Below are positions 1,927 through 16,095 of a stretch of DNA of 64,000 nucleotides, in pieces (the stretch's first letter is position 1; each line of letters opens with the position of its first letter). The translations under genes were made by a program, and so were the position numbers. Under the pieces are notes generated by a model that had not been told where the DNA came from, searched no databases, and was given only the letters and a program-made list of their open reading frames with translations. Origin of the DNA: Rhodopirellula sp. P2 (lineage in GTDB: Bacteria; Planctomycetota; Planctomycetia; Pirellulales; Pirellulaceae); assembly GCF_028768465.1 (NCBI RefSeq), contig NZ_CP118225.1, forward strand, positions 2,461,001-2,525,000. The letters are read 5' to 3'.

Positions 1927-2018
1927 AGAAAACCGAATGCAAAAACGCAACTTTAAAACTCACGCTTCGGTTTAGGATTCAATCAACAAGCCGTCACCAT
2001 TTGGCGCTTTGATTGCGA

Positions 2019-2891: not shown

Positions 2892-3158
2892 CCCCCTCGC
2901 AACTGCGAGTTGGATTCTGCCCCGCAGGACGTTCGTCTTGTCTGCCAGCGGGGAAGGTGTGATTGCCACCTGATTTCAGTGTGAAAAACACCGCTTTTCA
3001 CACTCGTGCCTCTGTAGCAGCGAACGCAACATCGCGTCCCCGCACCCTCGCCCGGGCGCACGGTGCTGCAGACCGAGCCCCCTTCAGCTAAAATCAACAC
3101 CCGTTCTCCCCCATTTCCAAGCATGTACGACACCCTGTCGTCCAGAAACCCGTTGTCC
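2892..3158 (+). other. Candidate attI region
   Basis: This is non-coding DNA between the recombinase stop and the first cassette. It ends at GTTGTCC (3152-3158), followed by GACC. This is close to the reverse complement of the first attC start (GGTCGTGCAAC, 3602-3612), as expected if G|TT at 3152 is the recombination point. The bases just before it (TGTCGTCCAGAAACCCG) resemble the conserved 3' end of the attC sites (TGTCGTAAAAACCTTCCG). A degenerate attC rather than a true attI is possible. Confidence 0.5.
2979..3003. terminator. Stem-loop downstream of the recombinase
   Basis: GTGTGAAAA (2979-2987) and TTTTCACAC (2995-3003) form a perfect 9-bp stem with a 7-base loop, about 90 bases after the recombinase stop. 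It has no clear T-tract, so it may be a weak terminator, a protein-binding operator or part of attI. Confidence 0.35.
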
Positions 3159-3174
3159 GACCGAGTCTTCCCAG

Positions 3175-3585
3175 ATGCCAACCGTTGATCCAACAATCGC
3201 TGCTTGGCAAACCGACCGTCACGAAATTGGCATGCTCGAATTCGCGCCAACGGAGTCCGCCGCGGAACGATTTCCGCATTGGCAGCTTCCGGATACTTCG
3301 ACCTTCCTTGGAATGCTTGAATCTGACGCACTCTGCTTGCTCGCGGACGGGACTCTCTGCGTTTACGACCACGAGGTTGCTGACCGCGTGCTATGTGTAG
3401 CTGCGCCCGACCAATCTTCGCTGATTTCGGCCTTATCCGACATGGACGCGTTCTTCGAGCGTTGCGGCGATGACGACGATCTGGCCGATGACGAATCGGC
3501 CAACGTCCAGACACGCGAGAAATGCACAACGTTGGTTGGTGGCTCTGACTACGCGGGATTCGTGCAACTGTTCTTTTGGGCATAG
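3175..3585 (+). CDS. Cassette 1 protein, unknown (136 aa)
   Basis: Starts at ATG 3175, 22 bases after the presumed cassette boundary. The protein is acidic (FFERCGDDDDLADDESANV) and soluble, without signal peptide or membrane segment. The layout LADGTLCVYDHEVADRVLCVA followed by LISALSDMDAFFERC resembles SMI1/KNR4-like or immunity-type small proteins often found in cassettes, but this is only an impression. The attC site begins 20 bases after the stop. Confidence is in the gene, not in a function. Confidence 0.6.
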   Translation: MPTVDPTIAAWQTDRHEIGMLEFAPTESAAERFPHWQLPDTSTFLGMLESDALCLLADGTLCVYDHEVADRVLCVAAPDQSSLISALSDMDAFFERCGDDDDLADDESANVQTREKCTTLVGGSDYAGFVQLFFWA

Positions 3586-3605
3586 CGGCTTGGCAAATCA
3601 CGGTC

Positions 3606-3812
3606 GTGCAACATGGTTTTTACGCAAGGCCGCGGCTTCGTCGTTGGAGTACCATTTGGTTTGCCGTATTGTCCACTTCGTTGCACGGTCTGGTTTGCCA
3701 CGCCGCGGACACCGCCTCTTTGGCAAAGTGGTTTCTTTTTGGTAAACTGTTTTGTGTTGCGACGCTTGTTGACTTCGGTGAGAAGCGGTGTCGTAAAAAC
3801 CTTCCGTTAGGC
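3606..3812 (+). repeat. attC1 (long type)
   Basis: Outer core GTGCAAC (3606-3612) and GTTAGGC (3806-3812). The inner arms GGTTTTTACG and CGTAAAAACC pair perfectly. At 207 bp it is longer than the classical attC range (about 57-141 bp). It is nearly the same sequence as attC3. Confidence 0.8.
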
Positions 3813-3823
3813 GACCTACCGTT

Positions 3824-4171
3824 TTGGCCAAGTATCCGTGCATTTTCGTTGCTGGCGAACTTGGTTCTTGGCCAACGATGCATGAAATGGCTGAGCTCTT
3901 GCGATCCGGCGGTCTCGCAGTGTCCGAAGGGCGCTATTCGCTTCGGTTAACTGACTTCGACCATTTCGTGTTCCAAGAATACGGCGGTGACCTTGGCGAT
4001 CCTCATATCGAATTTGAACACTATTCGCTGGACGACATGTTGCGGGACGCCGGTCGCGTTTCGCAGATCCTAGCTGACGCCAATCTTCAACATTGCTTCG
4101 AGATATACAACGACTCTGAAGAGAAGATAGGATACATACACCATGATTGGCCCGAAGAGCCGGTCGCCTAA
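3824..4171 (+). CDS. Cassette 2 protein, unknown (115 aa)
   Basis: Starts with TTG at 3824, the only start that fits the cassette boundary at 3807; no ATG lies upstream in frame. The sequence begins AKYPCIFVAGELGSWPT and contains an aromatic, acidic core (YSLRLTDFDHFVFQEYGGDLG) and HCFEIYNDSEEKIGYIHHDWP. No signal peptide or membrane segment. The TAA stop is formed inside the attC outer core GCCTAAC, a compact arrangement typical of gene cassettes. Family not recognised. Confidence 0.6.
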   Translation: MAKYPCIFVAGELGSWPTMHEMAELLRSGGLAVSEGRYSLRLTDFDHFVFQEYGGDLGDPHIEFEHYSLDDMLRDAGRVSQILADANLQHCFEIYNDSEEKIGYIHHDWPEEPVA

Positions 4172-4302
4172 CATGGTTTTTACGCTAGGCCTTCGGCACA
4201 CCTTCCTTGGTTGGTCACGTGGGCTCGCATTGGTAGAATCTTTCGTAGTTCAGGCATCGTTCGCTACGTTTAGGGCGGTGTCGTAAAAACCTTCCGTTGT
4301 CC
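4166..4302 (+). repeat. attC2
   Basis: Outer core GCCTAAC (4166-4172) and GTTGTCC (4296-4302), with inner arms GGTTTTTACG and CGTAAAAACC. The 5' core CGCCTAAC is the exact reverse complement of this cassette's own start (GTTAGGCG at 3806), which is the signature of a circularised cassette. 137 bp. Confidence 0.85.
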
Positions 4303-4316
4303 GCCGCAGGTTTCCC

Positions 4317-4805
4317 TTGACGCAACGTCTCAAAGCTCACAAATCTGGCGCTCGCTACCTGCTTCGACCCGAAAACGTGGCAATTGCCGCATACTTCCCT
4401 ATTAGCCGCAACGTGCACCAAGTTCGTTGCATTATCTCGCGGAACGGCGACGCTGAACGTGGCGAATGGATCACGACGCAACCATTTATCCACTCGATTC
4501 GCCATACGACACCCGAGCAAATCCACGAACTAGACACAAACCTTCAACTGTTGGCCGAGCTTCAACCGTGGGGCAATGCTGACCAGCACGACGAGGATGC
4601 CATCGAACCAATTCGTCGTTCCATACGTTTCTGGCATAACGAACGTGAAATCATGGCGTACTTACCACGCCGTTCCCTCTGGACTCCACTTGGTACGACC
4701 GTCTCTGGGGTTGCGGCTTTCGATGGCGCGTGGCGTAGCGTTTGGGCCTGCGCTGGTTCGCAGTCCGACCATGATCTTTCTGACCCGAATGGCCAACCTG
4801 ATTGA
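4317..4805 (+). CDS. Cassette 3 protein, unknown (162 aa)
   Basis: Begins at TTG 4317, 20 bases after the cassette boundary at 4297. The N-terminal half (QRLKAHKSGARYLL, then AAYFPISRNVHQVRCII) is basic. The C-terminal half holds Trp-rich segments (RRSIRFWHNEREIMAY and FDGAWRSVWACAG). There is no signal peptide. It ends 13 bases before the attC outer core GGACAAC (4818-4824). Function not recognised. Its attC is split by the mobile element that follows. Confidence 0.55.
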   Translation: MTQRLKAHKSGARYLLRPENVAIAAYFPISRNVHQVRCIISRNGDAERGEWITTQPFIHSIRHTTPEQIHELDTNLQLLAELQPWGNADQHDEDAIEPIRRSIRFWHNEREIMAYLPRRSLWTPLGTTVSGVAAFDGAWRSVWACAGSQSDHDLSDPNGQPD

Positions 4806-4817
4806 CGCTTCAGCGGC

Positions 4818-4824
4818 GGACAAC
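4818..4824 (+). repeat. attC3, left fragment (outer core)
   Basis: GGACAAC, preceded by GCGGC, is the exact reverse complement of this cassette's start (GTTGTCCGCCGC at 4296). The rest of attC3 resumes at 9703 with ATGG, so a mobile element inserted exactly between the outer core and the spacer. Confidence 0.75.
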
Positions 4825-5170
4825 TATTTAGGATTTGGGGTCAGCGAGGTACGAGCCTGAACCCAAATCCTTGTTCAAGGCGAGTCGCTTTGTGGTGGGG
4901 ACACTCCGGCGATGGTTCCCTAGTGGTTTTGTCCGCTGCGGCGTGCTCTGGCGGAGGGCTTCGTGCGAGGTTCGGTTTGGCGCGGTGGTTTGGGCAGCCG
5001 CTCTGGAAACTCAGAACGGTGTTTTGAATCGGGCAAGGGCGTTGATCGGCTGTTGGAATCGTGTGCCGGTATGCTTTTCGGGTCAGGTGATTGTGACGGG
5101 CGCGCAGGGGCAGCGGAGTCACCGATCAGATGACTTTGAAAGCGACGTGTTATTGGAGCGACGATCTGGA
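4825..5170. other. Non-coding 3' end of the IS91-like element, with hairpin
   Basis: No credible gene. A 14-bp stem with one mismatch (GGATTTGGGGTCAG at 4831-4844, CTGAACCCAAATCC at 4857-4870, loop of 12) lies 6 bases from the element end. That is where an oriIS-type hairpin is expected for IS91 elements. Confidence 0.45.
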
Positions 5171-5567
5171 TCATGGCGGCGCTCTGGCTGGTTGCGGCAA
5201 AGTTGTCGTGGCGGGGATGTAGCCCAGGTTGATCATCGGGCCGCCGCAGCTGGGGCATTGCATCGCGACCGGTTCCGCCATCACGATCTGCTGGCTGCAA
5301 GCCAGTTCGTATTGACGCTCCAGTGAGACAGCGACCAACCAGCGAACCTCCTCGAGGGATCGCTTGCTGCGCGCGTTGACGAATCCGTCGTGACGCACAC
5401 GATGAAAGCCAGCCGGCAACACGTGCTGGAGCCAACGGCGAATGAACTCTTCCACACGCATCGGCATCGGCTTGTACTGACGCGTTCCGCTGCGTTTGAC
5501 TTGCAGCGTCAAGTTGGCTTCTTCGAGCGACGTCAATTCGTCGCACTGCGTAACGCGTCGATTGGCC
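5171..5567 (-). pseudogene. IS91-like transposase, C-terminal part
   Basis: Continues the transposase begun at 8675 after removal of the IS66 copy and one 8-bp repeat: the frame joins as YVMRGAV then ANRRVTQCDE without a break. The fragment contains MRVEEFIRRWLQHVLPAGFHRVRHDGF split over the conserved IS91 C-terminal block (EEFIRRxLQHVLPxGFxxVRxxG). It ends with a short zinc-ribbon half, MQCPSCGGPMINLG. On its own it has no proper start. Confidence 0.8.
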
Positions 5568-5575
5568 ACCGCACC
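5568..5575. repeat. IS66 target site duplication, left copy
   Basis: ACCGCACC directly abuts the left IS end. The identical octamer is at 8206-8213. IS66-family elements make 8-bp duplications. Confidence 0.9.
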
Positions 5576-5616
5576 GTAACCGTTCACCGGGACCATTCGA
5601 CCTAGTGCGTTGACGG

Positions 5617-7392
5617 CTATTTTTTGAGACGTCGACGGCGGGCGCGTCGGACTCGCTTGCGGTCGGCTGCTTGTCGACGTTCGTCTTGCCGGTAGTCGCA
5701 GATGGATTCCGGGTGCGAGTCTCTCCAGGCAGGTGGGCTCAGCGCTGACCAGTCGGTTTCGCCAGCCAGGGCTCGGCGTAGCACATCATCCAGATAGGCG
5801 TGAACGTCCAATTCATTGCGAATCGCTGTCCCGATAATCGTCATCAAGTTCGCCGCTCGCTCACCTGCCGACAGCGAGCCTTTGAACAACCAGTTCTTGC
5901 GGCCTGTCGCCACTCGCTTCATCAACTGTTCGCAGTCGTTGTTGTCGATCGGAACGCGAGCGTCTTCGGTGAACCGATTCAGCGCCGCCCAGTGTCGACG
6001 CACGTACGCTGCCGCTTGGCCAAGATTGCTTTTGGGAAGCACCTTGGGTGAACTCATCGTTTCGCTTTGCAGGTATTCGTCGATCAAGCCCAGCACGTGA
6101 CGCGAGAGGCTTTGCCGCCGCGACAGTCGCTCCGCGTCATCGAGAGCCTTGATTTGATCCTCAATGTCGTAGAGCATCCGGATCCGCGATTCCAGCTTCG
6201 CCACTTGGATCGGGAATGCACTGCGGCACTCATCAATCTTGCGACGCGCATGCGCCCAGCACGCTGCGAACGTGATTCGCGAGTCGCTGCGCACATCGAT
6301 CTTTTGAAAGCCTGACCAGCAGTCGCCGATCAGCGTTCCTTCATAGTCCGCCAGCACATCATCGGGGCCGTCACGGTGACGACTGACCGTGAAGTCGAAC
6401 CCGACCACCGGAAGACGCGATGCGTAGTAGCCCCAGAAGTTCGCTTGGATGCTTGGCTTGCCAGAGGCGATGGCCTTTTCAAGCACTTCGACAACTCGGT
6501 CTGCGCGTGGATGATTCGATAAGTCGGGCATCACTTTGGGCGTGATCAGCACCACGCCTGTGTCATCACAGCCCACGCAAGCATCTGTCTTGAGAAACGA
6601 CCGCAAGTGTTCGGCCAGTGGGCGTAGCGCGAACTCGACGGAGGTTTCGATATTCGCCAGCGTGCTACGACTGGGCGTCCAACCGCTGCCGGCGAACAAG
6701 TCTTGCTGACGGTAAAACGGCAGGTGATAGAAGTACTTCCAAGCGATGACTTCGACACCGATCGATGCGTCGAAGCGATCCCCTGCGACCAGTCCGGTAG
6801 GACGCTCGGGGCTGATGATGGCCGGCCCTTCTTCGGCACGATTCTTTTCAATCGGCTGAACGTATTTGGCGTACTTGTTAACGCGAACACGAAGTTCGGG
6901 CCGAATCCACTCGAGCGTTTCGACCTCGTCATAGCCGATCAGCTTCAATCCCTCACGTCGAGCTTCGGGAAGGTCAACGATCCGCTCAATTCGCGGCAAG
7001 TGCTCGGGGAACTTACGGTCATTTTTGGCAGGCTGCTTGCGACGTCGTTTCTGTTTTTCTTCCTCAGCGTCTTGGGCGACCTGCTCCGCTTCCCGGACGG
7101 CTTCTTCCAGTGCACTGACCACTTCGGGAGTCGCTTCATCGCCGAGGTCCAGAAACAGCTGGCCGTCGCCGTCGACGCGGCGTTCACTCCGTCTGCCAAA
7201 GAGTTGCTGAAGCAGCTTGTCGACCTTCAGCTGGAGGTCGATGTTCTTTTCCTCGAGCTTGTCATTGTGGCTCTTCAGCTCGAGTACCGAGTGGGCTTGC
7301 TCTTCGACTTGTGATTTTAGGCTTGCGATTATGCGGTGACACGACTCGATGTCATTGGGCGGTTGAACGTTCGTTGATCGCTTCGCATCCAT
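5617..7392 (-). CDS. tnpC: IS66 transposase TnpC (DDE)
   Basis: Full-length IS66 transposase of 591 aa when started at ATG 7392; a TTG 9 bases upstream is the alternative. The N-terminus is a leucine-zipper-like coiled coil (residues about 20-65, SQVEEQAHSVLELKSHNDKL and after) followed by a basic linker KRRRKQPAKNDRK. The DDE catalytic residues are recognisable: Asp in GCDDTGVVL, Asp in TLIGDCWSGFQ, and Glu in NNDCEQLMKRVATGRKNW. The C-terminus ends in an Arg/Lys tail. It cuts and joins the element ends together with TnpA and TnpB. Confidence 0.93.
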   Translation of the reverse strand: MDAKRSTNVQPPNDIESCHRIIASLKSQVEEQAHSVLELKSHNDKLEEKNIDLQLKVDKLLQQLFGRRSERRVDGDGQLFLDLGDEATPEVVSALEEAVREAEQVAQDAEEEKQKRRRKQPAKNDRKFPEHLPRIERIVDLPEARREGLKLIGYDEVETLEWIRPELRVRVNKYAKYVQPIEKNRAEEGPAIISPERPTGLVAGDRFDASIGVEVIAWKYFYHLPFYRQQDLFAGSGWTPSRSTLANIETSVEFALRPLAEHLRSFLKTDACVGCDDTGVVLITPKVMPDLSNHPRADRVVEVLEKAIASGKPSIQANFWGYYASRLPVVGFDFTVSRHRDGPDDVLADYEGTLIGDCWSGFQKIDVRSDSRITFAACWAHARRKIDECRSAFPIQVAKLESRIRMLYDIEDQIKALDDAERLSRRQSLSRHVLGLIDEYLQSETMSSPKVLPKSNLGQAAAYVRRHWAALNRFTEDARVPIDNNDCEQLMKRVATGRKNWLFKGSLSAGERAANLMTIIGTAIRNELDVHAYLDDVLRRALAGETDWSALSPPAWRDSHPESICDYRQDERRQAADRKRVRRARRRRLKK

Positions 7393-7437
7393 GGTGCGCA
7401 ATTATACGAAACGCACCCTGGATGCAAAGTGTTCCCA

Positions 7438-7806
7438 TCAAGCAACTTTCATTCGCTTGCGTCTTGTCTTGGCCGATTTCAGTGACACGCCAGCGATCCA
7501 CATCGCGAGCTCGACCGAATCGATCGTGATATGCGATTGATCGCATGGAGACGTTGGCAGCTCAACGGTGCCTTGCTCGAGCCGTCTGTACCACAAGGTC
7601 AATCCACCAGTCTCCCACCAGAGGGCTTTGATGCGGTCTCGCTTTCGATTGACAAACAGAAACAGCGAACCGTCGGTGACGCTCTTGCCCAGCGACGTGG
7701 TGACGATTCCGGTCAGACCATCAAAGCCTTTTCGAAAGTCGACTGGATCGGTGCACAGATAGATCGGCGTGCCCCCTGAAACTTTATTGCCGGGCAATCC
7801 GATCAT
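7438..7806 (-). CDS. tnpB: IS66 accessory protein TnpB
   Basis: 122 aa, matching the IS66 Orf2 family: IYLCTDPVDFRKGFDGLTG, then LFLFVNRKRDRIKALWWETGGLTLWYRRLE, the signature of TnpB. The start codon overlaps the end of tnpA by 4 bases, indicating translational coupling. The protein is required for IS66 transposition, though its biochemical role is poorly defined. A basic C-terminal tail (SAKTRRKRMKVA) is present. Confidence 0.92.
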   Translation of the reverse strand: MIGLPGNKVSGGTPIYLCTDPVDFRKGFDGLTGIVTTSLGKSVTDGSLFLFVNRKRDRIKALWWETGGLTLWYRRLEQGTVELPTSPCDQSHITIDSVELAMWIAGVSLKSAKTRRKRMKVA

Positions 7807-8129
7807 GGCTGATCCTTCCGCAATGGATTCGGCGGAGAATCAGTCGGTACTTCGACACGAATGCGGACGCCACCGGGAAGTTCAATCGTCGCGCTGGCGT
7901 GATTCGCAGCAGGAGTGGGGCGATCCGGTGTGGCTTGAAACGAGACGGGCACAAACTTGGCCACGGCGGAGGCTTTCGGATCCCGTGCCGAACGCAGCTT
8001 GCGTTTCCAATTGTAGAAAGAAGGCTGCGAAACACCTTCGGCGGTACAGAACTCAGCGACCGTCATCTGAGCCTGTTCAAATCGTTGCAGACGCTCCGTC
8101 CAAAGCTTCACGGTTTCGACTCGAGTCAT
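7803..8129 (-). CDS. tnpA: IS66 accessory protein TnpA (helix-turn-helix)
   Basis: 108 aa from ATG 8129, with an N-terminal helix-turn-helix of the transposase-8/IS3 OrfA kind: MTVAEFCTAEGVSQPSFYNW followed by KRKL. The Ala-Pro-rich middle leads to a conserved end, IELPGGVRIRVEVP. A longer frame from 8162 would place the start inside the region near the IS end and adds no conserved residues. It lies 76 bases from the right IS end and is the first gene of the tnpABC operon. Confidence 0.88.
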   Translation of the reverse strand: MTRVETVKLWTERLQRFEQAQMTVAEFCTAEGVSQPSFYNWKRKLRSARDPKASAVAKFVPVSFQATPDRPTPAANHASATIELPGGVRIRVEVPTDSPPNPLRKDQP

Positions 8130-8205
8130 GGGGGGCTCCATTGGGAAGCAAAGTAAACCCAATACCCTAAAGCCCGCGCCTACAATGGTTCTGGTGAACG
8201 GTTAC

Positions 8206-8213
8206 ACCGCACC
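8206..8213. repeat. IS66 target site duplication, right copy
   Basis: ACCGCACC, identical to 5568-5575. It sits within the transposase codons of the IS91-like element (Arg-Gly-Ala-Val of YVMRGAV). Confidence 0.9.
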
Positions 8214-8675
8214 TCGCATCACGTAGGGGGCCAAGTACGCGACCGCGAATTCGCCGCTGCCGACCGCTTCGCTGTCGACGACGAAGCGTCCCTTCCAGAC
8301 ATCATCGGGGATCGAATCAAAGAACGATTCGGATCGCAGTTTGTCTTTCAGCTTTCCGCGAAACAACCTCTCCAGAATCTGCTCGGGCACGAACACACTG
8401 GCGCGACTGCTTTGCCAAACGCCGCCAGCGTCGATGCCGCCGGCGGGAACCACGACGTGAACGTGCGGGTGGTAAACCAGGTCACGTCCCCACGTGTGCA
8501 GCACGCTGGTGAATCCCGTTTCGTTCACACCGACATGTCGCGGGTTGGTCGCTGCTTGCTGAAGTGCCTGAGCTGCCGCACTCATCATGGCGGCGTACAG
8601 GACCTTCTTCTGTTGGGCGGTCATTCGTGTTCCATGCTTCGCGATGTACTGGTCGCCATAGCGTTTCAAGACCAT
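8206..8675 (-). pseudogene. IS91-like HUH transposase, N-terminal part (interrupted, internally deleted)
   Basis: Contains the HUH motif (YHPHVHVVVPAGG), the region LFRGKLKDKLRSESFFDSIPDDVWKG split across known IS91 blocks, and AYLAPYVMRG with two tyrosines three residues apart, as in Y2 rolling-circle transposases. The start ATG overlaps the end of the upstream recombinase by 10 bases. The first residues (KRYGDQYIAKHGTRMTAQQK) jump straight to YAAMMSAAAQAL. The Cys-rich zinc domain of about 100 residues normally between them is missing, so the copy was probably defective before IS66 entered. Confidence 0.8.
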
Positions 8676-9535: not shown

Positions 9536-9602
9536 GTCTTCTCGAAACCGCTTGGCGAGGTCAGAGTGAAAGCGAGTGAGCGTGGCCTTTTTTTGAAGTC
9601 AT

Positions 9603-9702
9603 CGTCGAGTTCCTGACGAGGGAGTGAAGTGAAAGACAGGGGACACCATAATCACCGAAGCAGTCTCCACCCCAACCCCGCCGCAAAGCGGCTCACTTGA
9701 AC
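9603..9702. other. 5' end of the IS91-like element, non-coding
   Basis: About 100 bases upstream of the recombinase gene, ending ...CACTTGAAC next to the attC3 remainder. It probably holds the element terminus and promoter. No confident hairpin or promoter was identified. Confidence 0.35.
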
Positions 9703-9903
9703 ATGGTGTTTACGCAAAGCCGCGGCTTCGTCGTTGGAGCGTCTTTCGGTTTGCAACGTCATTTGCTTCGGTGAAGCGTTTGGGTTTGCCACGCCGCGGA
9801 CACCGCCTCTATGGCAACGTGGCAATCCTTTGGTAAACTGTTTTGTGTTGCGACGCTTTCTGGCTTCAGGGAGAAGCGGTGTCGTAAAAACCTTCCGTTA
9901 TCC
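9703..9903 (+). repeat. attC3, right fragment (long type)
   Basis: Resumes with ATGG and the inner arm (GGTGTTTACG, one base off consensus) and ends with CGTAAAAACC then GTTATCC (9897-9903). Joined to GGACAAC at 4818-4824 it makes a 208-bp attC closely matching attC1 (207 bp). Confidence 0.75.
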
Positions 9904-9940
9904 GCTCCAAGTTTAGTGGTGTCCACCCGAATACAATCGT

Positions 9941-10909
9941 ATGCCCCGCATCGTCTATTCTCGACACTACAACATTGGTTTCTACGGCCTCGAACGTCTT
10001 CACCCGTTTGACTCGCGTAAATACGGCCGCGTTTGGGGATTGCTTCGTCGCCACTTTGGCTCATCGCTCTCCGGGCTTCATGTGAGACCGCGACGTGCAG
10101 CCTCCCGCGATGAACTGATGCTGGTTCACTCGAACGACTATCTCACTCGATTGCGCGATCCAAAATACGTCGCTGGTGCACTTGAGGTTCCGCCGGTTCG
10201 GCGTCTTCCAAGTTGGGCGATTGACTGGCACGTGCTCCGGCCGATGCGGTGGGCAACGCGGGGCACGATACTCGCCGCAGCCAACGCGCTGGAACACGGC
10301 TTTGCTGTCAATCTTAGCGGTGGATACCACCACGCCAAACCTAACCACGGTGAGGGGTTCTCAATCTACGCGGATATTGGCATCGCCGTCGCTGCGATGC
10401 GTGCCCAACAATTGATTGCTGATGACTCACGAATCGCGTACATCGACACCGACGCGCATCAAGGCAACGGCGTCTGCCACACGTTCATGTCCGACAATCG
10501 CGTTTTCATTTTTGATATTTTCAACTGTCGCATCTATCCGATTTTCGATGTTGATGCGCGGAAGCGGGTCGATTGTGATGTTGGTATCAACAGTTCGATC
10601 ACGGATTCCGAATACATGGGCGAACTCCATAATCGGCTGCCGGGGTTTCTTGATTCCGTGGGGCGGTCGCCCATCGGTTTGGCCATCTACAATGCGGGCA
10701 CCGATGTTTTCGCGGGCGACCCACTCGGAGGCCTCAGTATATCGGCGGACACTATCCGCGAACGCGACCTATTTGTTGTTCGCGAGCTACGCAAACGCAA
10801 CATTCCTACAATCATGGTTCTTAGCGGTGGCTACACCAAGCAGAGTTACCAGCTTGTTGCTGATTCTGTTATCGAACTGATTGAGATGGAGACCGCAGAG
10901 GGCGGATAG
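9941..10909 (+). CDS. HDAC11-like (class IV) deacetylase, cassette 4
   Basis: 322 aa and full length for a histone-deacetylase-fold enzyme. Visible signatures: HPFDSRKYG near the N-terminus, LVHSNDYL, the catalytic pair in LSGGYHHAKPNHGEGF, zinc ligands Asp and His in YIDTDAHQGNG and Asp in YNAGTDVFAGDPLGGLSIS, and SGGYTKQSYQ at the C-terminal end. The spacing and the GGLSIS segment fit the HDAC11/class IV branch. The family removes acyl groups from lysines or polyamines using zinc; the bacterial substrate is unknown. There is no signal peptide, so it is cytoplasmic. It is the sole gene of its cassette, and its TAG stop lies inside the attC outer core GGATAGC. A clear Shine-Dalgarno sequence is not seen. 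Confidence 0.9.
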   Translation: MPRIVYSRHYNIGFYGLERLHPFDSRKYGRVWGLLRRHFGSSLSGLHVRPRRAASRDELMLVHSNDYLTRLRDPKYVAGALEVPPVRRLPSWAIDWHVLRPMRWATRGTILAAANALEHGFAVNLSGGYHHAKPNHGEGFSIYADIGIAVAAMRAQQLIADDSRIAYIDTDAHQGNGVCHTFMSDNRVFIFDIFNCRIYPIFDVDARKRVDCDVGINSSITDSEYMGELHNRLPGFLDSVGRSPIGLAIYNAGTDVFAGDPLGGLSISADTIRERDLFVVRELRKRNIPTIMVLSGGYTKQSYQLVADSVIELIEMETAEGG

Positions 10910-11042
10910 CATGGTTTTTACGCTAGGCCCCTTCGGGGACATCTTCGGCGTGGTTTTGGCCGCGGCTCCATGATACAATCAAATCAGATTCAGAACATCT
11001 TCGCTTCGATTGCGGCGATGTCGTAAAAACCTTCCGTTGTGT
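10904..11042 (+). repeat. attC4
   Basis: Outer core GGATAGC (10904-10910; the cassette start GTTATCC at 9897 predicts GGATAAC, so one base differs) and GTTGTGT (11036-11042). Inner arms GGTTTTTACG and CGTAAAAACC. 139 bp, nearly identical in its interior to attC11. Confidence 0.85.
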
Positions 11043-11046
11043 GACC

Positions 11047-11331
11047 CTAGAGTGAACGGATGTCACGATCACCAGCGATGACGCTTGCGACTTCGATACC
11101 GTTCTCGATCGGCCTGAAGAATATCACGTAGCGACCAACCACATTGCTGCGAATGTCGGCACCGTACTCAGGCCGCCGTTCTCCAAATTCGGGCGTTGTC
11201 GCGATAAGCTTGCACTTCCCTTCGATTTTCTCGACCCAATTAGCCGCCGCAATGGGTTTGTCTCGCGCGATGTAATCGTAAATGTCTGACAAATCCCGCC
11301 GTGCGGACGGTGCAATTATCAACCTTGGCAT
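11047..11331 (-). CDS. RelE/ParE-family toxin (cassette 5)
   Basis: 94 aa with the ParE/RelE fold pattern: beta strand at the start (MPRLIIAPSARRDLSDI), helix, the motif YIARDKPIAAANW, then EFGERRPEYG and VGRYVIFFRPIENGIEVASVI. The ATG overlaps the antitoxin stop by one base (TAATG). Family members inhibit DNA gyrase or cleave mRNA on ribosomes; which applies cannot be told. The gene runs against cassette polarity, so it must be transcribed from a promoter of its own operon. It is homologous to the toxins of cassettes 8 and 11. Confidence 0.85.
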   Translation of the reverse strand: MPRLIIAPSARRDLSDIYDYIARDKPIAAANWVEKIEGKCKLIATTPEFGERRPEYGADIRSNVVGRYVIFFRPIENGIEVASVIAGDRDIRSL

Positions 11332-11573
11332 TACTCGGCTGACTCCATCGCCTTCTTAGCGCGTTCTCGTAATTCGCTGAACACGACATCTCCGTCGATT
11401 CCTTGCCCCGCGTCTAGCTCATCAATTCCCTTTTGAATTTCCGCTCGCAACTGCTGCTGGCTTTTCAATAGCTGCACGCCAGCGGCAATTGCGGCTTCTG
11501 CAGATTCAAACTGCCCAGACGCCACCAAACCCTCTACAAATTGCATGGAATCGGGGCTAAGCTGTACATTCAT
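11331..11573 (-). CDS. ParD-like antitoxin (cassette 5)
   Basis: 80 aa from ATG 11573; a frame extension to 11603 would run into the attC boundary and is rejected. It has a short ribbon-helix-helix-like start (MNVQLSPDSMQFVEGLVASG) and the ParD signature EAAIAAGVQLLKSQQQLRAEIQKGIDELDAG, ending in an acidic, flexible tail. It precedes the toxin in the same operon, as usual. It should neutralise the toxin and repress the operon, whose promoter would lie within the last 30 bases before the attC or inside the attC itself. Confidence 0.85.
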   Translation of the reverse strand: MNVQLSPDSMQFVEGLVASGQFESAEAAIAAGVQLLKSQQQLRAEIQKGIDELDAGQGIDGDVVFSELRERAKKAMESAE

Positions 11574-11601
11574 GGATACCTCCAACCGGGGCTGCCGGGT
11601 C

Positions 11602-11740
11602 ACACAACATGGTTTTTACGCAGAGGCCTTGCGGGCACACCTTCGATGTGGTGCAGACCTCGCTTCCATTGTACACCTAATCCAAGTTCAAACCATCTAC
11701 ACTTTGGTGGCGGCGGTGTCGTAAAAGCCGTCCGTTGGCC
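11602..11740 (+). repeat. attC5
   Basis: Outer core ACACAAC (11602-11608), exact complement of the cassette start GTTGTGT at 11036, and GTTGGCC (11734-11740). Inner arms GGTTTTTACG and CGTAAAAGCC. 139 bp. Confidence 0.85.
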
Positions 11741-11756
11741 GACCTAGCGTTTACAA

Positions 11757-12164
11757 ATGGAACACTACAAGGTCATGCTCGTTTCGGACACTCGCTCGCC
11801 GCAGATCGGTGCTGTCCGCCTTCACGACGATTCTGACGACTCACTCATCGAACTGTCCTTTGACGGCAACGCCTTCACTGGGACTGGTGATGACTTCTTT
11901 GACGCGTTCTGCCAAATCCGCGAGCAACTCGAACCGCTTGGTTTGCTCCCGCAATGCTACGCCGCTCATCGTCTCGCATTTCCGGCCGGCATGTCTCGCA
12001 GCATGGGCGGTGGCGTCAAACTTTACCGTCTAACGCTCGGCAAACAGGCTCTGATGGGCGACCTGATACACATGTTCGACACTGGCGATGATAATGAACC
12101 TGTTTCGGTGGCTGACCAGCGTGCATTCTTTGACAAATGGATCGGTTCACTCGGCAGATCATAG
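11757..12164 (+). CDS. Cassette 6 protein, unknown (135 aa)
   Basis: Starts at ATG 11757. Soluble and acidic, with a beta-rich first half (YKVMLVSDTRSPQIGAVRL, then SLIELSFDGNAFTGTG), a helix (DDFFDAFCQIREQLEPLG) and a segment LPQCYAAHRLAFPAGMSRS followed by GGGVKLYRLTLG. It ends DQRAFFDKWIGSLGRS. No recognised family. The single-gene cassette has the usual compact layout, with 3 bases between the stop and the attC outer core. Confidence 0.65.
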   Translation: MEHYKVMLVSDTRSPQIGAVRLHDDSDDSLIELSFDGNAFTGTGDDFFDAFCQIREQLEPLGLLPQCYAAHRLAFPAGMSRSMGGGVKLYRLTLGKQALMGDLIHMFDTGDDNEPVSVADQRAFFDKWIGSLGRS

Positions 12165-12167
12165 GTC

Positions 12168-12304
12168 GGCCAACATGGTTTTTACGCTAGTCGCTCCGCG
12201 ATCACCTTCGCTCTTTGGAAATGGGCGTTCGCCTTGGTGCAATTTTACCTACTCAAAGTCGCTCGCTTCGTTTTAGGCGGTGTCGTAAAGACCTTCCGTT
12301 AGCC
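12168..12304 (+). repeat. attC6
   Basis: Outer core GGCCAAC (12168-12174), exact complement of the cassette start GTTGGCC, and GTTAGCC (12298-12304). Inner arms GGTTTTTACG and CGTAAAGACC. 137 bp, same interior type as attC7. Confidence 0.85.
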
Positions 12305-12311
12305 GCCGTTA

Positions 12312-12635
12312 GTGTTCCCTGACTTCAAACCGTTTCACGATTCGCTGCCCGATGGCGGGTTCGTCACCACTGATGAACGCGCCGCATTGCTCGCCGCCGA
12401 GTTCCAACGCGAATTGCCGCCCGGACACCTGCTCGACACTATCGCCGTGAACGTGGTCGCACATCGCGAAGGGACTGACGACATACTCTGCTGGTATCGT
12501 GATTCCCAAATGCGTTTCACTGTCGTCCATCTCTCTTGGCTTGGCCGCACGGAGATCAATGCTGAACATCCGACGGTCGAATCCGATGGTACGTTTGACG
12601 ACTTCCTTGCCTACGAGCGTCGTTTCTCTGCTTGA
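12312..12635 (+). CDS. Cassette 7 protein, unknown (107 aa)
   Basis: Begins with GTG at 12312, 13 bases after the cassette boundary; there is no ATG in the first part of the frame. The protein reads like a small alpha/beta domain: DERAALLAAEFQRELPPGH, then AVNVVAHREGTDDILCWY and MRFTVVHLSWLGRTEIN, ending FDDFLAYERRFSA. This resembles small cassette-borne proteins of unknown role. No signal peptide or membrane segment. Confidence 0.6.
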   Translation: MFPDFKPFHDSLPDGGFVTTDERAALLAAEFQRELPPGHLLDTIAVNVVAHREGTDDILCWYRDSQMRFTVVHLSWLGRTEINAEHPTVESDGTFDDFLAYERRFSA

Positions 12636-12642
12636 CCGCGGC

Positions 12643-12780
12643 AGCTAACATGGTTTTTACGATAGTCGCTCCCCGATCACCTTCGCTCTTTGGCAGCGGG
12701 CGTTCGCATTGGTACAATCTCTCTTAACACAGAGTCAACCGCTTCGTTCATGGCGGTGACGTAAAAACCTCCCGTTATGT
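12643..12780 (+). repeat. attC7
   Basis: Outer core AGCTAAC (12643-12649) and GTTATGT (12774-12780). Inner arms GGTTTTTACG and CGTAAAAACC. The 5' core differs from the complement of the cassette start (GGCTAAC) at one position. 138 bp. Confidence 0.82.
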
Positions 12781-12784
12781 GCCC

Positions 12785-13069
12785 CTAGATTTTCGGGTCG
12801 TCAACTTCGCCTCGAATGACGCGGACGATCTCCAAGAATCCTTCGACTCGCCGAAAGAATATCACGTAGCTGCCAATGTACGTGGAGCGAATGCCATCGC
12901 CGAATTCCGGACGCGTGTCGCCCACATCAGGATGCTTGACCACCAAGCGACATTTCTCCCGCAGCTTCTGCACCCATTGTCGAGCGGCGACCGGTTTGTC
13001 GCGTGCGATGTATCGAGCGATCTGCTTGAGGTCTTCTTTCGATTTCGCAGAATACCGAAGTCTCGGCAT
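12785..13069 (-). CDS. RelE/ParE-family toxin (cassette 8)
   Basis: 94 aa from ATG 13069; the open frame extends upstream to 13192 but that part overlaps the antitoxin and is not conserved. It is clearly homologous to the cassette 5 toxin: MPRLRYSAKSKEDLKQIARY, then IARDKPVAARQW, GDTRPEFGDGIRS and GSYVIFFRRVEGFLEIVRVI. It sits 4 bases downstream of its antitoxin in the reverse orientation to cassette polarity. Likely a translation or gyrase inhibitor. Confidence 0.85.
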   Translation of the reverse strand: MPRLRYSAKSKEDLKQIARYIARDKPVAARQWVQKLREKCRLVVKHPDVGDTRPEFGDGIRSTYIGSYVIFFRRVEGFLEIVRVIRGEVDDPKI

Positions 13070-13073
13070 GTTT

Positions 13074-13322
13074 TCAGCTTCCTTGCTGTTCGGCTTCTGC
13101 CTTATCAATCTCGGCTTCGACCTCATTGAACACGGTTTCTTCGTCGCAGAATTCACCGGCATCCAATTGACTGACACCCTTTTGAATCTCACCGCGCAAT
13201 TGTTCGCGTCCCATCAACAGCTTTACGCCCTCGACAATGGCATCCTCCTCAGAGGTGAATCTTCCTTGGGCGACAAGACCTTTCACGAAATCGTTGACTT
13301 CGCTCGGCAGGTTGAGATTCAT
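13074..13322 (-). CDS. ParD-like antitoxin (cassette 8)
   Basis: 82 aa starting MNLNLPSEVNDFVKGLVAQG, with the ParD-type middle FTSEEDAIVEGVKLLMGREQ and LRGEIQKGVSQLDAG, then an acidic tail (ETVFNEVEAEIDKAEAEQQ). It is homologous to the cassette 5 antitoxin. It is first in a two-gene operon read against the array. The start lies 25 bases from the attC outer core, leaving almost no promoter space unless the promoter lies within the attC. Confidence 0.82.
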   Translation of the reverse strand: MNLNLPSEVNDFVKGLVAQGRFTSEEDAIVEGVKLLMGREQLRGEIQKGVSQLDAGEFCDEETVFNEVEAEIDKAEAEQQGS

Positions 13323-13346
13323 GGCTTCACTCCAATGGGCCGGGGC

Positions 13347-13485
13347 ACATCACATGGGTTTTACGCTGAGGCCCTTCGGGCACACCTTCGACTTGGTTCA
13401 GGACTCGATCTCATTGTACAATGAAATCTAAATCAAACCACCTTCGCTTCGGTTGCGACGGTGTCGTAAAAACCGTCCGTTGTGC
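13347..13485 (+). repeat. attC8
   Basis: Outer core ACATCAC (13347-13353; the cassette start GTTATGT predicts ACATAAC, one base off) and GTTGTGC (13479-13485). Inner arms GGGTTTTACG and CGTAAAAACC. 139 bp. Interior closely matches attC5, the site of the other reverse toxin-antitoxin cassette. Confidence 0.82.
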
Positions 13486-13502
13486 GACTCAATCAAACGA
13501 AT

Positions 13503-13709
13503 ATGGATGTTCTTGCTGACATCGCGTTGACCTACTTTCGCACATTCCTCTTTTGCTCTAGCGAATCGGACATTGACCCCGACTTCGCCTGCAAGCAAAT
13601 GGAGAGCTTTCCGTAGTACGTCGCCACCCTCTCCGGCGTCGAGCGTGTGGCTCTGTCGACAGCGTCTCAACGTGCTTTGGACTTCGCACTTCGGCCACCA
13701 GACGAATAG
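13503..13709 (+). pseudogene. Cassette 9 small ORF broken by an in-frame stop
   Basis: From ATG 13503 the frame reads MDVLADIALTYFRTFLFC and on to KQMESFP, meets TAG at 13614-13616, then continues in the same frame as YVATLSGVERVALSTASQ to a stop at 13707-13709. The two halves together (68 residues plus the internal stop) look like one small protein. It may be a nonsense-mutated remnant or only the first 37 codons may be used. Its 3' end coincides with sequence resembling a cassette start (TAGCCGCTCCG). Confidence 0.4.
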
Positions 13710-13722
13710 CCGCTCCGAGATC

Positions 13723-14301
13723 ATGTCGATTCATGCTTTATCTCTGCATCCGGCTGACCCTGCGTTCAGACCGCCACCCGATTTCGCCGACCAACTGCGT
13801 CTCCTTGATTTTCTCGGCGATGAGTTCGACTATTTCGGCGATGTCCGCTTTCGTCCCGGAACTTCGTTCTTCGACCTTATCCGTTTTGAGCGCACTCACA
13901 ACGTCATCGAACTCAAACCCTCTGCTGACGGCCTAACAGAGCTGCCTCCGCAGGGCAGCAGAAACTTTGTGCAAATCGAGCTGTCTTCGTCGGATGAAAC
14001 GGGCGTGACGTGCGGTTGTAATATCCGCGATCCGTTGTGTCCCGTCTGTGCAAATCCGCTTGGAGATTGGGGTGATTTGATTGGCGCTTGGCACGATACA
14101 AATGCACAATCTAACTGCCCTGATTGCGGCCACGGATGCACAATCCCGAATCTCAACTGGCAACATGTCGCCGGGTTTGCCCGTTACTGGATCACGATTC
14201 AGCAAATCTACGAAGGCGAGGCTGCACCTACCGATCAATTTCTCGACTTACTCGCCGGTGCCACTGGCTGCGAATGGCGATATCTTTGGTGCCATCTCTA
14301 A
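13723..14301 (+). CDS. Cassette 9 zinc-ribbon-like protein, unknown (192 aa)
   Basis: ATG 13723 is chosen over the longer frame from 13573, because the extra 50 residues are low-complexity and overlap the upstream small ORF in another frame. The first half is acidic and beta-rich (FADQLRLLDFLGDEFDYF, FFDLIRFERTHNVIEL). The second half carries CGCNIRDPLCPVCANP and, 27 residues on, CPDCGHGC, a probable structural zinc site. It ends EWRYLWCHL. Function unknown. It is 17 bases before an attC whose outer core does not match the start of this cassette. Confidence 0.65.
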   Translation: MSIHALSLHPADPAFRPPPDFADQLRLLDFLGDEFDYFGDVRFRPGTSFFDLIRFERTHNVIELKPSADGLTELPPQGSRNFVQIELSSSDETGVTCGCNIRDPLCPVCANPLGDWGDLIGAWHDTNAQSNCPDCGHGCTIPNLNWQHVAGFARYWITIQQIYEGEAAPTDQFLDLLAGATGCEWRYLWCHL

Positions 14302-14317
14302 CCCTGTCGCGGCGGGC

Positions 14318-14454
14318 GGCTAACAGGGTTTTTGCGCTAGGCCTTCGGCACACCTTCCATTTTTGTCAACGCGGGCTGGCGTTGGTACAATTTCTGGTAG
14401 TTCAGATATCGTTCGCTTCGTTCAGGGCGGTGTCGTAAAAAACTTCCGTTGGGC
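14318..14454 (+). repeat. attC9
   Basis: Outer core GGCTAAC (14318-14324) and GTTGGGC (14448-14454). Inner arms GGTTTTTGCG and CGTAAAAAAC. The 5' core implies a cassette starting GTTAGCC, but the delimited cassette starts GTTGTGC (13479), so the unit is probably composite. 137 bp. Confidence 0.82.
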
Positions 14455-14479
14455 GGCACCGCTCGAATGGCTATCCGCT

Positions 14480-14677
14480 ATGTCACTTCAAGAACTTGAA
14501 AACACGATCGCGAAATTGCCCCCAGATGAACTTGCGAAATTCCGCGAGTGGTTTCTGGACTTTGATTCCGCACAGTTTGACAAACGCATCGAAACCGACG
14601 CTCGCGACGGGCGATTGGATTCGCTTGCTGACGCGGCGCTTCGCGACCACAAAGCTGGCAGATCGTCGCCGCTATGA
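14480..14677 (+). CDS. Antitoxin-like small protein (cassette 10)
   Basis: 65 aa from ATG 14480. The sequence ELENTIAKLPPDELAKFREW followed by FLDFDSAQFDKRIE and an ending of the type LADAALRDHKAGRSSPL is typical of the short antitoxins that pair with RelE/YafQ-like toxins. It overlaps the next gene by ATGA (14674-14677). Unlike the other three toxin-antitoxin pairs in the array, it reads in cassette direction. Confidence 0.78.
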   Translation: MSLQELENTIAKLPPDELAKFREWFLDFDSAQFDKRIETDARDGRLDSLADAALRDHKAGRSSPL

Positions 14678-14932
14678 GTCATTTTGCAAGCCCCGCATTC
14701 TGGGATTGCTACAAGCAACTTCCGGATACCATTCGATCGCTGGCCGACAAGAACTTTTGCACTCCTCAAAGCTGACCCGAAGCATCCGTCCCTTCACTTC
14801 AAAAAGGTCGGCCGTTTTCGGTCTGCTCGCGTTGGGCGAGACTTCCGTGCACTCGCTGTCGAGACCGACGACGGTCTTCTATGGTTTTGGATCGGCAATC
14901 ACGCTGAGTACGATCGCTTGATCGGCGCGTAG
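14674..14932 (+). pseudogene. RelE-like toxin with a frameshift (cassette 10)
   Basis: ATG 14674 opens MSHFASPAFWDCYKQLPDTI and runs to DKNF, then the frame is lost at the run TTTT (14755-14758) and stops soon after. With one T fewer the frame continues as ALLKADPKHPSLHFKKVGRF and ends VETDDGLLWFWIGNHAEYDRL, a good RelE-type C-terminus. The toxin is thus probably inactivated by a one-base insertion, unless this is a sequencing error in the homopolymer or programmed slippage. The antitoxin remains intact. Confidence 0.7.
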
Positions 14933-14937
14933 GTTCC

Positions 14938-15073
14938 GCCCAACATGGTTTGTACGCTAGGCCTGCGGCACGCCTTCCTTGGTTGGTCACGTGGGATGGC
15001 ATTGGTACAATCTCTCTTAACACAGAGTCAACTGCTTCGTTCAGGGCGGTGTCGTAAAAACCTTCCGTCCGAC
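14938..15073 (+). repeat. attC10 (disrupted 3' core)
   Basis: Outer core GCCCAAC (14938-14944), exact complement of the cassette start GTTGGGC. Inner arms GGTTTGTACG and CGTAAAAACC. The 3' core should read GTTRRRY but is GTCCGAC, because foreign sequence begins at 15069. A second copy of AAAACCTTCCGT followed by a proper GTTGTGC lies at 15366-15382. Confidence 0.75.
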
Positions 15074-15358
15074 GGAAGGGTGCGCCCGAGGTTTTCAAGG
15101 CATGCACCGATGTCCGAATGTTCAATGCTGGACGGCGTCCGTGTTGAAAACAACCCACCGGCATGCCGGTGGGCCGCGAAGCACCTTCGGCGCATCGGAG
15201 ACCAAGCTATTCCTGGGCAAGTTGCTCCTCAGCAGAGCTTGCTTCCGCTTCATTTGGCAACTCAATTCGAACGCCTCGAAATGGTCCGTTCAAACTTCGG
15301 GCATCGGAGAAATCCCTCCAAAAACCTGAAGTCAGGGTACCGCGCACGCTTCCGTCGG
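15069..15358. mobile_element. 290-bp MITE-like insert with 17-bp inverted ends
   Basis: Ends CCGACGGAAGGGTGCGC (15069-15085) and GCGCACGCTTCCGTCGG (15342-15358) are inverted repeats with 16 of 17 matches. A 12-base direct repeat AAAACCTTCCGT occurs at 15057-15068 and 15366-15377. The interior has no convincing ORF but includes a perfect 20-base palindrome at 15154-15173. It could be a MITE in the attC or an ORF-less cassette with a collapsed attC. Confidence 0.5.
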
Positions 15359-15375
15359 ATGAGCCAAAACCTTCC

Positions 15376-15382
15376 GTTGTGC
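15376..15382 (+). repeat. Displaced attC10 3' core
   Basis: GTTGTGC preceded by AAAACCTTCC has the exact form of a normal attC 3' end and marks the start of cassette 11 (TTGTGCGACC). Confidence 0.65.
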
Positions 15383-15385
15383 GAC

Positions 15386-15673
15386 CTATATGTTTCGCAT
15401 GTCACGACTGCCGTGAATGACGCGAGACACCTCGATGCCACGTTCGGTCGCGCGGAAGAAAATCACGTAGTTGCCGACGCTGAATGAACGGGCACCTGGC
15501 ACTCCAAGTCCTGGCCGCAATTCGCCCATTTCAGGCTGGGTCGCAATCGTTTCGCACGTCTCCCGAATCTTGCGTGACCATTCACGTGCCGCCTCCGGCT
15601 TGTCCCTCGCAATGTATTCAACCATGCCGAATAAGTCGTCATCCGCCTCCGGTGCATAGATGACGTTCGCCAT
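15386..15673 (-). CDS. RelE/ParE-family toxin (cassette 11)
   Basis: 95 aa, starting MANVIYAPEADDDLFGMVEY, with the shared motif IARDKPEAAREW, then ETIATQPEMGELRPG and VGNYVIFFRATERGIEVSRVIHG. It is clearly related to the toxins of cassettes 5 and 8, especially through IARDKP and YVIFFR. Its ATG overlaps the antitoxin stop by one base. It reads against cassette polarity. It probably acts as a growth inhibitor released when the antitoxin is lost, which would favour keeping the array. Confidence 0.85.
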   Translation of the reverse strand: MANVIYAPEADDDLFGMVEYIARDKPEAAREWSRKIRETCETIATQPEMGELRPGLGVPGARSFSVGNYVIFFRATERGIEVSRVIHGSRDMRNI

Positions 15674-15915
15674 TAGCCTTTCCCATTCTCAATTTCTCGA
15701 ATACGCTCTTCCGCACGTCGGTAGACATCTTCGGCCGGGATACCTTTCCCGGCGTCCAACTGATCGAATCCCTTTCGTACTTCAGCGTGAAGCGTTTCCC
15801 TTGCCTGCAACAAACGCAACGCTTCCGCAAGCACATCGGATTCGTTTAGGAATCTCTTTTCGGAGACCATTCGTTGAACAAAGGGGACTAAATCGCTAGG
15901 GATCTCTGTTGTCAT
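15673..15915 (-). CDS. ParD-like antitoxin (cassette 11)
   Basis: 80 aa beginning MTTEIPSDLVPFVQRMVSEK, with SDVLAEALRLLQARETLHAE, then VRKGFDQLDAGKGIPAEDVY and a charged tail (RRAEERIREIENGKG). The layout matches the antitoxins of cassettes 5 and 8. It is the first gene of the reverse operon, 40 bases from the attC outer core. Confidence 0.83.
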   Translation of the reverse strand: MTTEIPSDLVPFVQRMVSEKRFLNESDVLAEALRLLQARETLHAEVRKGFDQLDAGKGIPAEDVYRRAEERIREIENGKG

Positions 15916-15955
15916 GACTGTCTCAATTTTGACTGGCTTGGCAGCGATGTTGGTC

Positions 15956-16095
15956 GTAGAACATGTTTTTTACGCAAGGCCCCTTCGGGGACAACTTCAG
16001 CGTGTTTTTGGCCGCGGCTCCATCGTACAATCAAATCAGATTCAGAACATCTTCGCTTCGGTGGTGGCGATGTTGAGAAAAGCCTTCGGTTGAGC
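15956..16095 (+). repeat. attC11 (degenerate, last of the array)
   Basis: Outer core GTAGAAC (15956-15962) and GTTGAGC (16089-16095). The 5' inner arm TTTTTTACGC is good, but the 3' arm reads TGTTGAGAAAAGCC instead of TGTCGTAAAAACC. The interior is nearly identical to attC4. No further attC is seen downstream, so this is the end of the array. Confidence 0.7.

Follow-up and report, generated by a model that had tools for sequence, protein, structure and literature searches.

A gene cassette array in Rhodopirellula sp. P2 that probably belongs to an integron-type system with a XerA-like recombinase lacking the I2 domain

The genome of the marine planctomycete Rhodopirellula sp. P2 is a single contig of 7.29 Mb (G000:C1), of which positions 2461001-2525000, a stretch of 64,000 nucleotides hereafter called the window, were analysed. 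Coordinates are window positions unless G000:C1 or a locus (L) is given. At 3152-16092 the window carries a gene cassette array with eleven attC-like sites (3606-16092). With two further arrays in the genome, it probably belongs to an integron-type system served by a XerA-like recombinase that lacks the additional (I2) domain of integron integrases (IntI), rather than by an IntI. This reading draws on the anatomy of the sites, the joint conservation of recombinase, attI and attC, the lack of I2, the sharing of cassettes between arrays and their turnover from species to species. The initial annotation of this DNA had described a chromosomal integron; the architecture agrees with that description, but the recombinase is of the Xer type without the IntI additional domain and IntI lies 2.3 Mb away. 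The system is an integron by architecture and stands outside the IntI family by its recombinase and sites.

The arrays lie at 2464-2477 kb (array A, in the window), 3247-3259 kb (array B) and 6053-6062 kb (array C), and the array recombinase has three copies in the genome, one per array. The full-length copy, at array B (3.245 Mb), has 448 amino acids (aa), and the A and C copies hold residues 157-448; the truncated window copy keeps the catalytic half and a C-terminal extension, and the SAM-like DNA-binding half is gone. Among solved structures, the closest in sequence are XerA (4a8e, 144 bits) and VchIntI (2a3v, 129 bits). Ten NCBIfam families matched at 1e-10, and the protein falls under the cut-off of all 10, including XerA (214.8 bits for a cut-off of 220, a narrow miss), integron integrase (200.7 for 265), XerC (181.2 for 335.15) and XerD (169.5 for 329.6). 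In the alignment, residues 180-238 of VchIntI (59 residues) stand against just 19 in the array recombinase. The spacing from GKGxxDR to HxxR is 59-68 residues in 33/33 array-recombinase rows (two proteins occur twice), compared with 100-101 in 12/12 IntI of the same bacterial family, and is 67 in the genome's XerC and XerD, whose identities were confirmed. Because this stretch is so short, the I2 domain, situated in integron integrases between the catalytic K and HxxR, is missing from the array recombinase. A tree of 66 rows places the 33 rows of the array recombinase apart from the 12 IntI, each group with support of 100/99. Nor is the protein distributed as a Xer housekeeping gene present in nearly all relatives, as it occurs in 13 of 149 family genomes at E≤1e-60 and separate XerC and XerD are present. 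Its C-terminal domain of ∼105 residues is conserved and gave no confident structural match.

Arrays A, B and C share ∼1.14 kb at ∼99% identity, consisting of the C-terminal part of the recombinase gene and downstream DNA. This platform ends at GTACGACACCCTGTCGTACAGAAACCC|GTT (one base different in A), where the bar marks the boundary, and the first cassettes differ beyond it. Since the shared block stops there and the cassettes beyond differ in all three arrays, the platform end is read as attI. Relatives of the 19-base attI core, with 2 to 5 changes, were found between recombinase and first site in G130, G138, G142, G087, G083, G055 and G077. In G452, from the same class and a different order, the putative attI has kept its inverted repeat and reads GTACGACAGCTCTGTCGTACAGATAACC|GTT, ∼225 bp behind the recombinase; only one array-type site lies within 3 kb of it, with a degenerate R'' end. 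An apparent attI therefore adjoins the recombinase gene in the three arrays, in other genera and in G452. Unlike in the source genome, the recombinase is divergent from the array in L050, L051, L053, L079 and L082, and divergent loci had no clear attI (none in G091, weak candidates in G141 and G115).

All eleven attC sites of the initial annotation are present and were recovered by a covariance model trained on 29 sites, of which nine come from the window and match by construction; both 200-nucleotide (nt) sites were outside the training set. The order of elements it had given, AAC-ATGG-TTTTTACG ... CGTAAAAACC-TTCC-GTT, is found with slight departures in several sites, but the full outer boxes are not: RYYYAAC is exact in 2/11 sites and GTTRRRY in 3/11. 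The seven-base agreements that it had reported between cassette start and end were reproduced exactly, being perfect in cassettes 2, 3, 5, 6 and 10 and one base off in cassettes 4, 7 and 8; there are two mismatches in cassette 1, three in cassette 9 and two in cassette 11. The repeats are not spread through the genome without regard to cassettes, since all 16 matches to the 5' half of the site with ≤1 mismatch fall in the three array clusters and scattered matches begin at two mismatches. One lone attC-like site lies outside the three arrays, near 4378 kb (L016).

On the bottom strand, the array site consists of an R' arm ending in AAC, GGAA, a 10-bp stem (GGTTTTTACG/CGTAAAAACC) and, inside it, a second stem of 5 bp (ACACC/GGTGT) that closes a loop of ∼75 nt; a mini-hairpin lies between the two stems on the 3' side and is followed by AT, GTT and the R'' arm. 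Sites fall into size classes of ∼130 and ∼200 nt, mixed within arrays (L013, L014, L045-L063). Folding of the bottom strand, suggested as a check by the initial annotation, gave the R and L arms and the unpaired centre but no single extrahelical bases: in the prediction, the outer 10-bp stem is unbulged in the consensus and the hairpin branches beyond it.

The R arms are cassette-specific and 11-12 bp long. In 187 attC-bounded cassettes from 22 arrays, the R' start pairs with the R'' end: start and end arms agree at positions 4-12 in 83.2%, compared with 51.2% for shuffled partners (1000 shuffles, standard deviation 0.98, maximum 54.8%). When each arm pair is counted once (135 distinct pairs, one array omitted), the values are 81.1% and 51.0%. 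Arms that meet at one array site agree in 51.7% (214 sites). Agreement drops to 53% at position 12 and to ∼20% at positions 13-14. Because a cassette's own start and end agree and the arms that meet in the array do not, the arms are matched for the circular form of the cassette, as expected if the folded strand of the circle is the substrate. This complementarity had been presented as direct structural proof of circularised cassettes; it points strongly to circles but does not prove recombination. The R box (RYYYAAC/GTTRRRY) is mostly missing, with GTTRRRY in 24% of the 187 cassette starts, although this consensus is a weak test here, as several sites from the looser screen in IntI loci of the same family also depart from it.

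In the short class, the mini-hairpin loop is GNA in 150/166 sites (GAA 120, GCA 16, GGA 9 and GTA 5), or 145/161 distinct sites, and its middle base takes all four letters. The mini-hairpin stems are mostly GCC/GGC, with paired replacements to TCGC/GCGA (4), CCCC/GGGG (3) and TCCC/GGGA (2). GNA is found on the bottom strand only; the complementary strand would carry TNC. The available text of PMC4686876 describes GNA loops with ≥2 G-C pairs as unusually stable DNA mini-hairpins.

We propose that the 448-aa recombinase would insert circular cassettes at the G|TT of the attI 3' of its own gene and would move cassettes between arrays. In the folded bottom strand, pairing of the 11-12-bp R arms, together with the unpaired centre (4 and 2 nt) and the 10-bp L stem, would create a dif-like pseudo-duplex, which the recombinase may bind in order to exchange one strand with attI. 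The GNA mini-hairpin, present in most sites where canonical attC have extrahelical bases, may mark the strand and the L side, replacing the contact between I2 and extrahelical bases. We infer that the array recombinase does the moving, that it works on the circle's bottom strand in folded form, that the hairpin has this role and that the full-length copy at array B acts in trans on the window array. We lean slightly towards a second route to single-strand cassette recombination, in which a Xer-type recombinase never acquired I2 and the GNA mini-hairpin marks the strand. Such an I2-less system would either have been invented independently or preserve the state that preceded I2.

The 149 genomes of the family were surveyed with thresholds of E≤1e-60 for the recombinase and E≤1e-75 for IntI. 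Array-type sites are present in 37 genomes and the recombinase in 13, all of which are among the 37 (P=2e-9). The recombinase adjoins an array in 11/13; in G068 and G076 it lies at a contig end. In a second collection, sharing at least four contigs with the first, array-type sites were found within the available stretches at 8/16 loci of the array-recombinase family and at 0/64 loci of other tyrosine recombinases.

IntI is present in 76/149 genomes, and its association with arrays is weak (24/37 array genomes vs 52/112 others, p=0.06). In the single-contig genomes G000, G055, G072, G083, G130 and G138, the distance between IntI and array is at least ∼48 kb (G130) among the array sites listed. 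The sole IntI above the family cut-off in the source genome, at G000:C1:4768073-4769020, is 2.3 Mb from the window array and >1 Mb from each array, and no array-type attC (model R1) or match in the generic screen for canonical attC was found within 13-16 kb of it (L001, L010). The window array is thus also an attC array with no IntI nearby, as in clusters of attC sites lacking integron integrases (CALIN). The array model has no match at E≤1 across 22 IntI loci (381 kb), and the generic screen, which gave almost no matches on shuffled sequence, finds 32 canonical-looking attC of 88-92 nt in 14/22 of them. Each of the four IntI-linked attC that were folded has two single-base bulges, which resemble IntI-type extrahelical bases. 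When 22 array loci (330 kb) were screened in the same way, no site measured 80-105 nt; the 63 sites obtained had other lengths, 133-208 nt for those listed. Searching 20 array loci with IntI by tblastn produced weak cross-matches only (≤122 bits). In G115 (Rhodopirellula sallentina), arrays and recombinase are present with no IntI match at E≤1e-75. The source genome also has partial integron-integrase-like genes at G000:C1:2194531-2195158 and 4245869-4246093 (L002, L003), perhaps remnants.

Cassettes are shared between arrays. Cassette 1 of A with its attC matches an internal cassette of C (window 3149-3808, 660 bp at 99.7%), cassette 3 of A recurs in B (window 4170-4824 and L013 6518-7174, 96.8%), and B and C have one further cassette in common (97.4% over 855 bp). 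The shared cassettes are bordered by attC and occupy different positions in different arrays. G130 has three platforms sharing flanks with A (L056, 76-88%), B (L057, 94-96%) and C (L187, 87-95%), and no cassette of ≥180 bp is common to the same locus of the two genomes. The comparison of related strains suggested by the initial annotation thus shows orthologous loci with shared flanks and different cassettes. A relative of cassette 8 of A was found in L057 (92.6% over 846 bp). Such sharing and turnover are what an active system would leave.

Several observations weigh against a dedicated I2-less system. The window's own recombinase copy is truncated, XerA and IntI tie in a comparison of predicted folds, and the source genome also encodes XerC, XerD and IntI, which are able in principle to act in trans. 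The recombinase is absent at E≤1e-60 from 24/37 array genomes, and 12/37 lack both it and IntI at the survey thresholds. A sensitive search of those 24 returned mostly Xer-sized matches without the C-terminal part, with recombinase-family fragments in G024 and a 332-aa relative, perhaps a fragment, in G101; in G013, one array is headed by a 213-aa tyrosine recombinase remnant. Because 24/37 array genomes lack the recombinase and the sensitive search adds little, orphan arrays are common. Among the sites, 16/166 of the short class have no GNA loop, and a GNA loop near the L stem was found in 0/27 sites of the long class. Covariation is barely informative for the L stem because of its strong conservation. 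Nearest-neighbour folding gave no strand preference (mean difference 0.17 kcal/mol, bottom strand lower in 77/166), with parameters that assign GAA and TTC loops equal energy and so do not include the GNA stability effect.

The arrays could instead be ordinary CALIN served in trans by an IntI elsewhere, with the adjacent recombinase incidental. The full IntI at 4768 kb and the 24 recombinase-less array genomes would fit this explanation, and IntI acts on diverse attC. We consider it distinctly improbable, as the IntI loci have their own canonical attC (88-92 nt, 14/22 loci) and zero array-type sites, the recombinase heads arrays in 11/11 checkable of 13 genomes, mostly with a recognisable attI, R. 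sallentina combines arrays and recombinase with no IntI match at the threshold, and the association of IntI with arrays across genomes is weak. Action of the recombinase on double-stranded core sites (CGTAAAAACC-TTCCGTT-arm), as for Xer/dif or phage, with hairpin potential as a by-product, is unlikely, although the array recombinase is Xer-type, folding energies are equal between strands and the Xer core site has arm and spacer dimensions resembling the 11-12 bp, short centre and 10 bp seen here. A single core-site crossover needs no match of the far R'' arm to the cassette start, yet an 11-12-bp match exists across 187 cassettes, and this explanation is weakened because the far-arm match is left unaccounted for. 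The restriction of the GNA loop, a type forming unusually stable single-stranded DNA hairpins, to the bottom strand also argues against it. That the system is a relic whose cassettes are no longer moved is very unlikely: of the three recombinase copies two are truncated, the arrays have taken in transposons and a dispersed repeat, and recombinase-less arrays are common, but cassettes 96.8-99.7% identical, with attC borders, occupy different positions of different arrays, and the orthologous loci of the source genome and G130 share flanks (76-96%) and no cassette at the threshold used.

If the arrays do form an integron-type system with an I2-less recombinase, they combine features of several known systems. 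As in chromosomal (sedentary) integrons (IntI, attI and attC), the recombinase gene lies by attI, small cassettes stand in tandem and include toxin-antitoxin cassettes, and the attC are imperfect inverted repeats in which a short unpaired spacer separates the R and L arms and crossover is at G|TT. Unlike in sedentary integrons, the recombinase has no I2 and is below the integron-integrase cut-off, the R arms measure 11-12 bp, are specific to the cassette and mostly depart from GTTRRRY, the sites have no single extrahelical bases and in most cases a GNA mini-hairpin instead, and the recombinase is mostly co-directional with the array. Co-directional orientation is also known for ‘inverted’ IntI integrons. 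The absence of IntI near the array is shared with CALIN, but here the array has at its head a conserved attI and a recombinase of another kind. Xer systems (XerA, XerC/XerD with dif) are closest by sequence and have similar arm-spacer-arm dimensions.

If the reading holds, there is also a likeness to CTXphi integration by host XerC/XerD, which, in the available text of PMC4792948, involves an I2-less Xer-type recombinase on a folded, duplex-mimicking single strand without extrahelical bases; in contrast, the array recombinase is dedicated and linked, and its substrates are gene-cassette arrays rather than a phage genome. The insertion is not fully conserved in the ‘integron-like’ subgroup of tyrosine recombinases of Smyshlyaev et al. 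2021 (PMC8138268); that paper, in the sections available, treats the insertion as essential for integron function and does not tie insertion-less members to cassette arrays or attC. I2 of IntI is regarded as required to capture cassettes and as the source of single-strand recombination (PMC7790495, available text), and the origin of I2 and attC without each other is described as a chicken-and-egg paradox in the accessible portion of PMC4792948. No earlier description of such a system was found in the literature searched, whose coverage excluded preprints and most subscription journals. An I2-less recombinase and sites without extrahelical bases, beside true integrons in the same genomes, would make the question of origin directly testable, and planctomycete cassette arrays found through attC-like repeats should be checked before they are assigned to IntI.

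The features of the window array, with arm agreement between cassette start and end, are as follows.

2013..2891, forward strand: array recombinase copy, N-terminally truncated (residues 157-448 of 448 aa), 100% identical to the full copy at G000:C1:3244902-3246245; Pfam Phage_integrase only
3125..3154, forward strand: putative attI, inverted repeat GTACGACA-CCC-TGTCGTCC (one mismatch here), then AGAAACCC|GTT; crossover at GTT
3152..3612, forward strand: cassette 1, open reading frame (ORF) 3175-3585; arms 10/12
3606..3808, reverse strand: attC 1, 200-nt class; covariance model and fold
3806..4172, forward strand: cassette 2, ORF 3824-4171; arms 11/12
4166..4298, reverse strand: attC 2, 152.5 bits; side hairpin in fold
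4296..4824, forward strand: cassette 3, ORF 4317-4805, common to array B; arms 12/12
4825..9702, reverse strand: IS91-like element in attC 3, with Y2/IS91 transposase 8202-8675 and tyrosine recombinase 8666-9535 (NF033538, PF04986)
5576..8204, reverse strand: IS66-family element nested in the IS91-like element, with transposase 5617-7401 (PF03050) and ORFs 7438-7806 and 7803-8162
9696..9899, reverse strand: attC 3, 200-nt class; insertion of the IS91-like element has moved its own R'' to 4824
9897..10910, forward strand: cassette 4, histone-deacetylase-domain protein 9941-10909 (PF00850, E=1.8e-44)
10904..11038, reverse strand: attC 4; side hairpin CCCC-GAA-GGGG
11036..11608, forward strand: cassette 5, ParE-like toxin 11047-11331 (PF05016) with a short ORF 11331-11603 as partner, on the opposite strand; arms 12/12
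11602..11736, reverse strand: attC 5; covariance model
11734..12174, forward strand: cassette 6, ORF 11757-12164; arms 12/12
12168..12300, reverse strand: attC 6; side hairpin TCGC-GGA-GCGA
12298..12649, forward strand: cassette 7, ORF 12312-12635; arms 10/12
12643..12776, reverse strand: attC 7; covariance model
12774..13353, forward strand: cassette 8, ORFs 12785-13192 and 13074-13322 on the opposite strand, which may be a toxin-antitoxin pair; arms 11/12
13347..13481, reverse strand: attC 8; covariance model
13479..14324, forward strand: cassette 9, ORF 13573-14301; arms 6/12
14318..14450, reverse strand: attC 9; covariance model
14448..14944, forward strand: cassette 10, ORFs 14363-14677 and 14684-14932; arms 11/12
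14938..15069, reverse strand: attC 10; covariance model
15068..15365, no strand assigned: 300-bp dispersed repeat resembling a miniature inverted-repeat transposable element, inserted at the 3' end of attC 10
15376..15962, forward strand: cassette 11, ParE-like toxin 15386-15673 (PF05016) and partner ORF 15673-15915, on the opposite strand
15956..16092, reverse strand: attC 11, 88.4 bits, 3' end degenerate; the array ends here

The IS91-like element has split attC 3, whose R'' ends at 4824 and whose remainder begins at 9703. Six such insertions are present in A, B and C (three of 2.2-4.9 kb and three of ∼0.5 kb), at the same attC point in different cassettes, with junctions R''-AAC|TATTTAGG on the left and CACTTGAAC|ATGG on the right (GAAC|ATGG). 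The insertions outside the window are as follows.

Array B: L013 8686-11171, 12187-12698 and 15405-15916
Array C: reverse complement of L014 9227-11466 and 12715-13227

A genome search with the left end gave seven copies, the seventh at 4376.5 kb (L016, ∼546), where it abuts an R''-like arm 1.6 kb from the lone attC. G130 has the same junctions, in loci chosen for their arrays. These junctions suggest that the IS91-like element is an attC-targeting transposon of the rolling-circle type. The nested IS66-family element is absent from the IS91-like copies of arrays B and C. The 300-bp repeat has terminal inverted repeats and 12 near full-length copies in the genome, the window copy included.

Among the cassettes, the disagreeing start and end arms of cassette 9 suggest that it is possibly a fusion of two cassettes, as by deletion. 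The product of cassette 4, with its histone-deacetylase domain, is large for a cassette (322 aa). The toxin-antitoxin call for cassette 8 was made by eye, and its second ORF, the one scanned, had no Pfam match. The three toxin-antitoxin-like cassettes (5, 8 and 11) are coded against the direction of the array, and the ParE domain is found in the first and third only.

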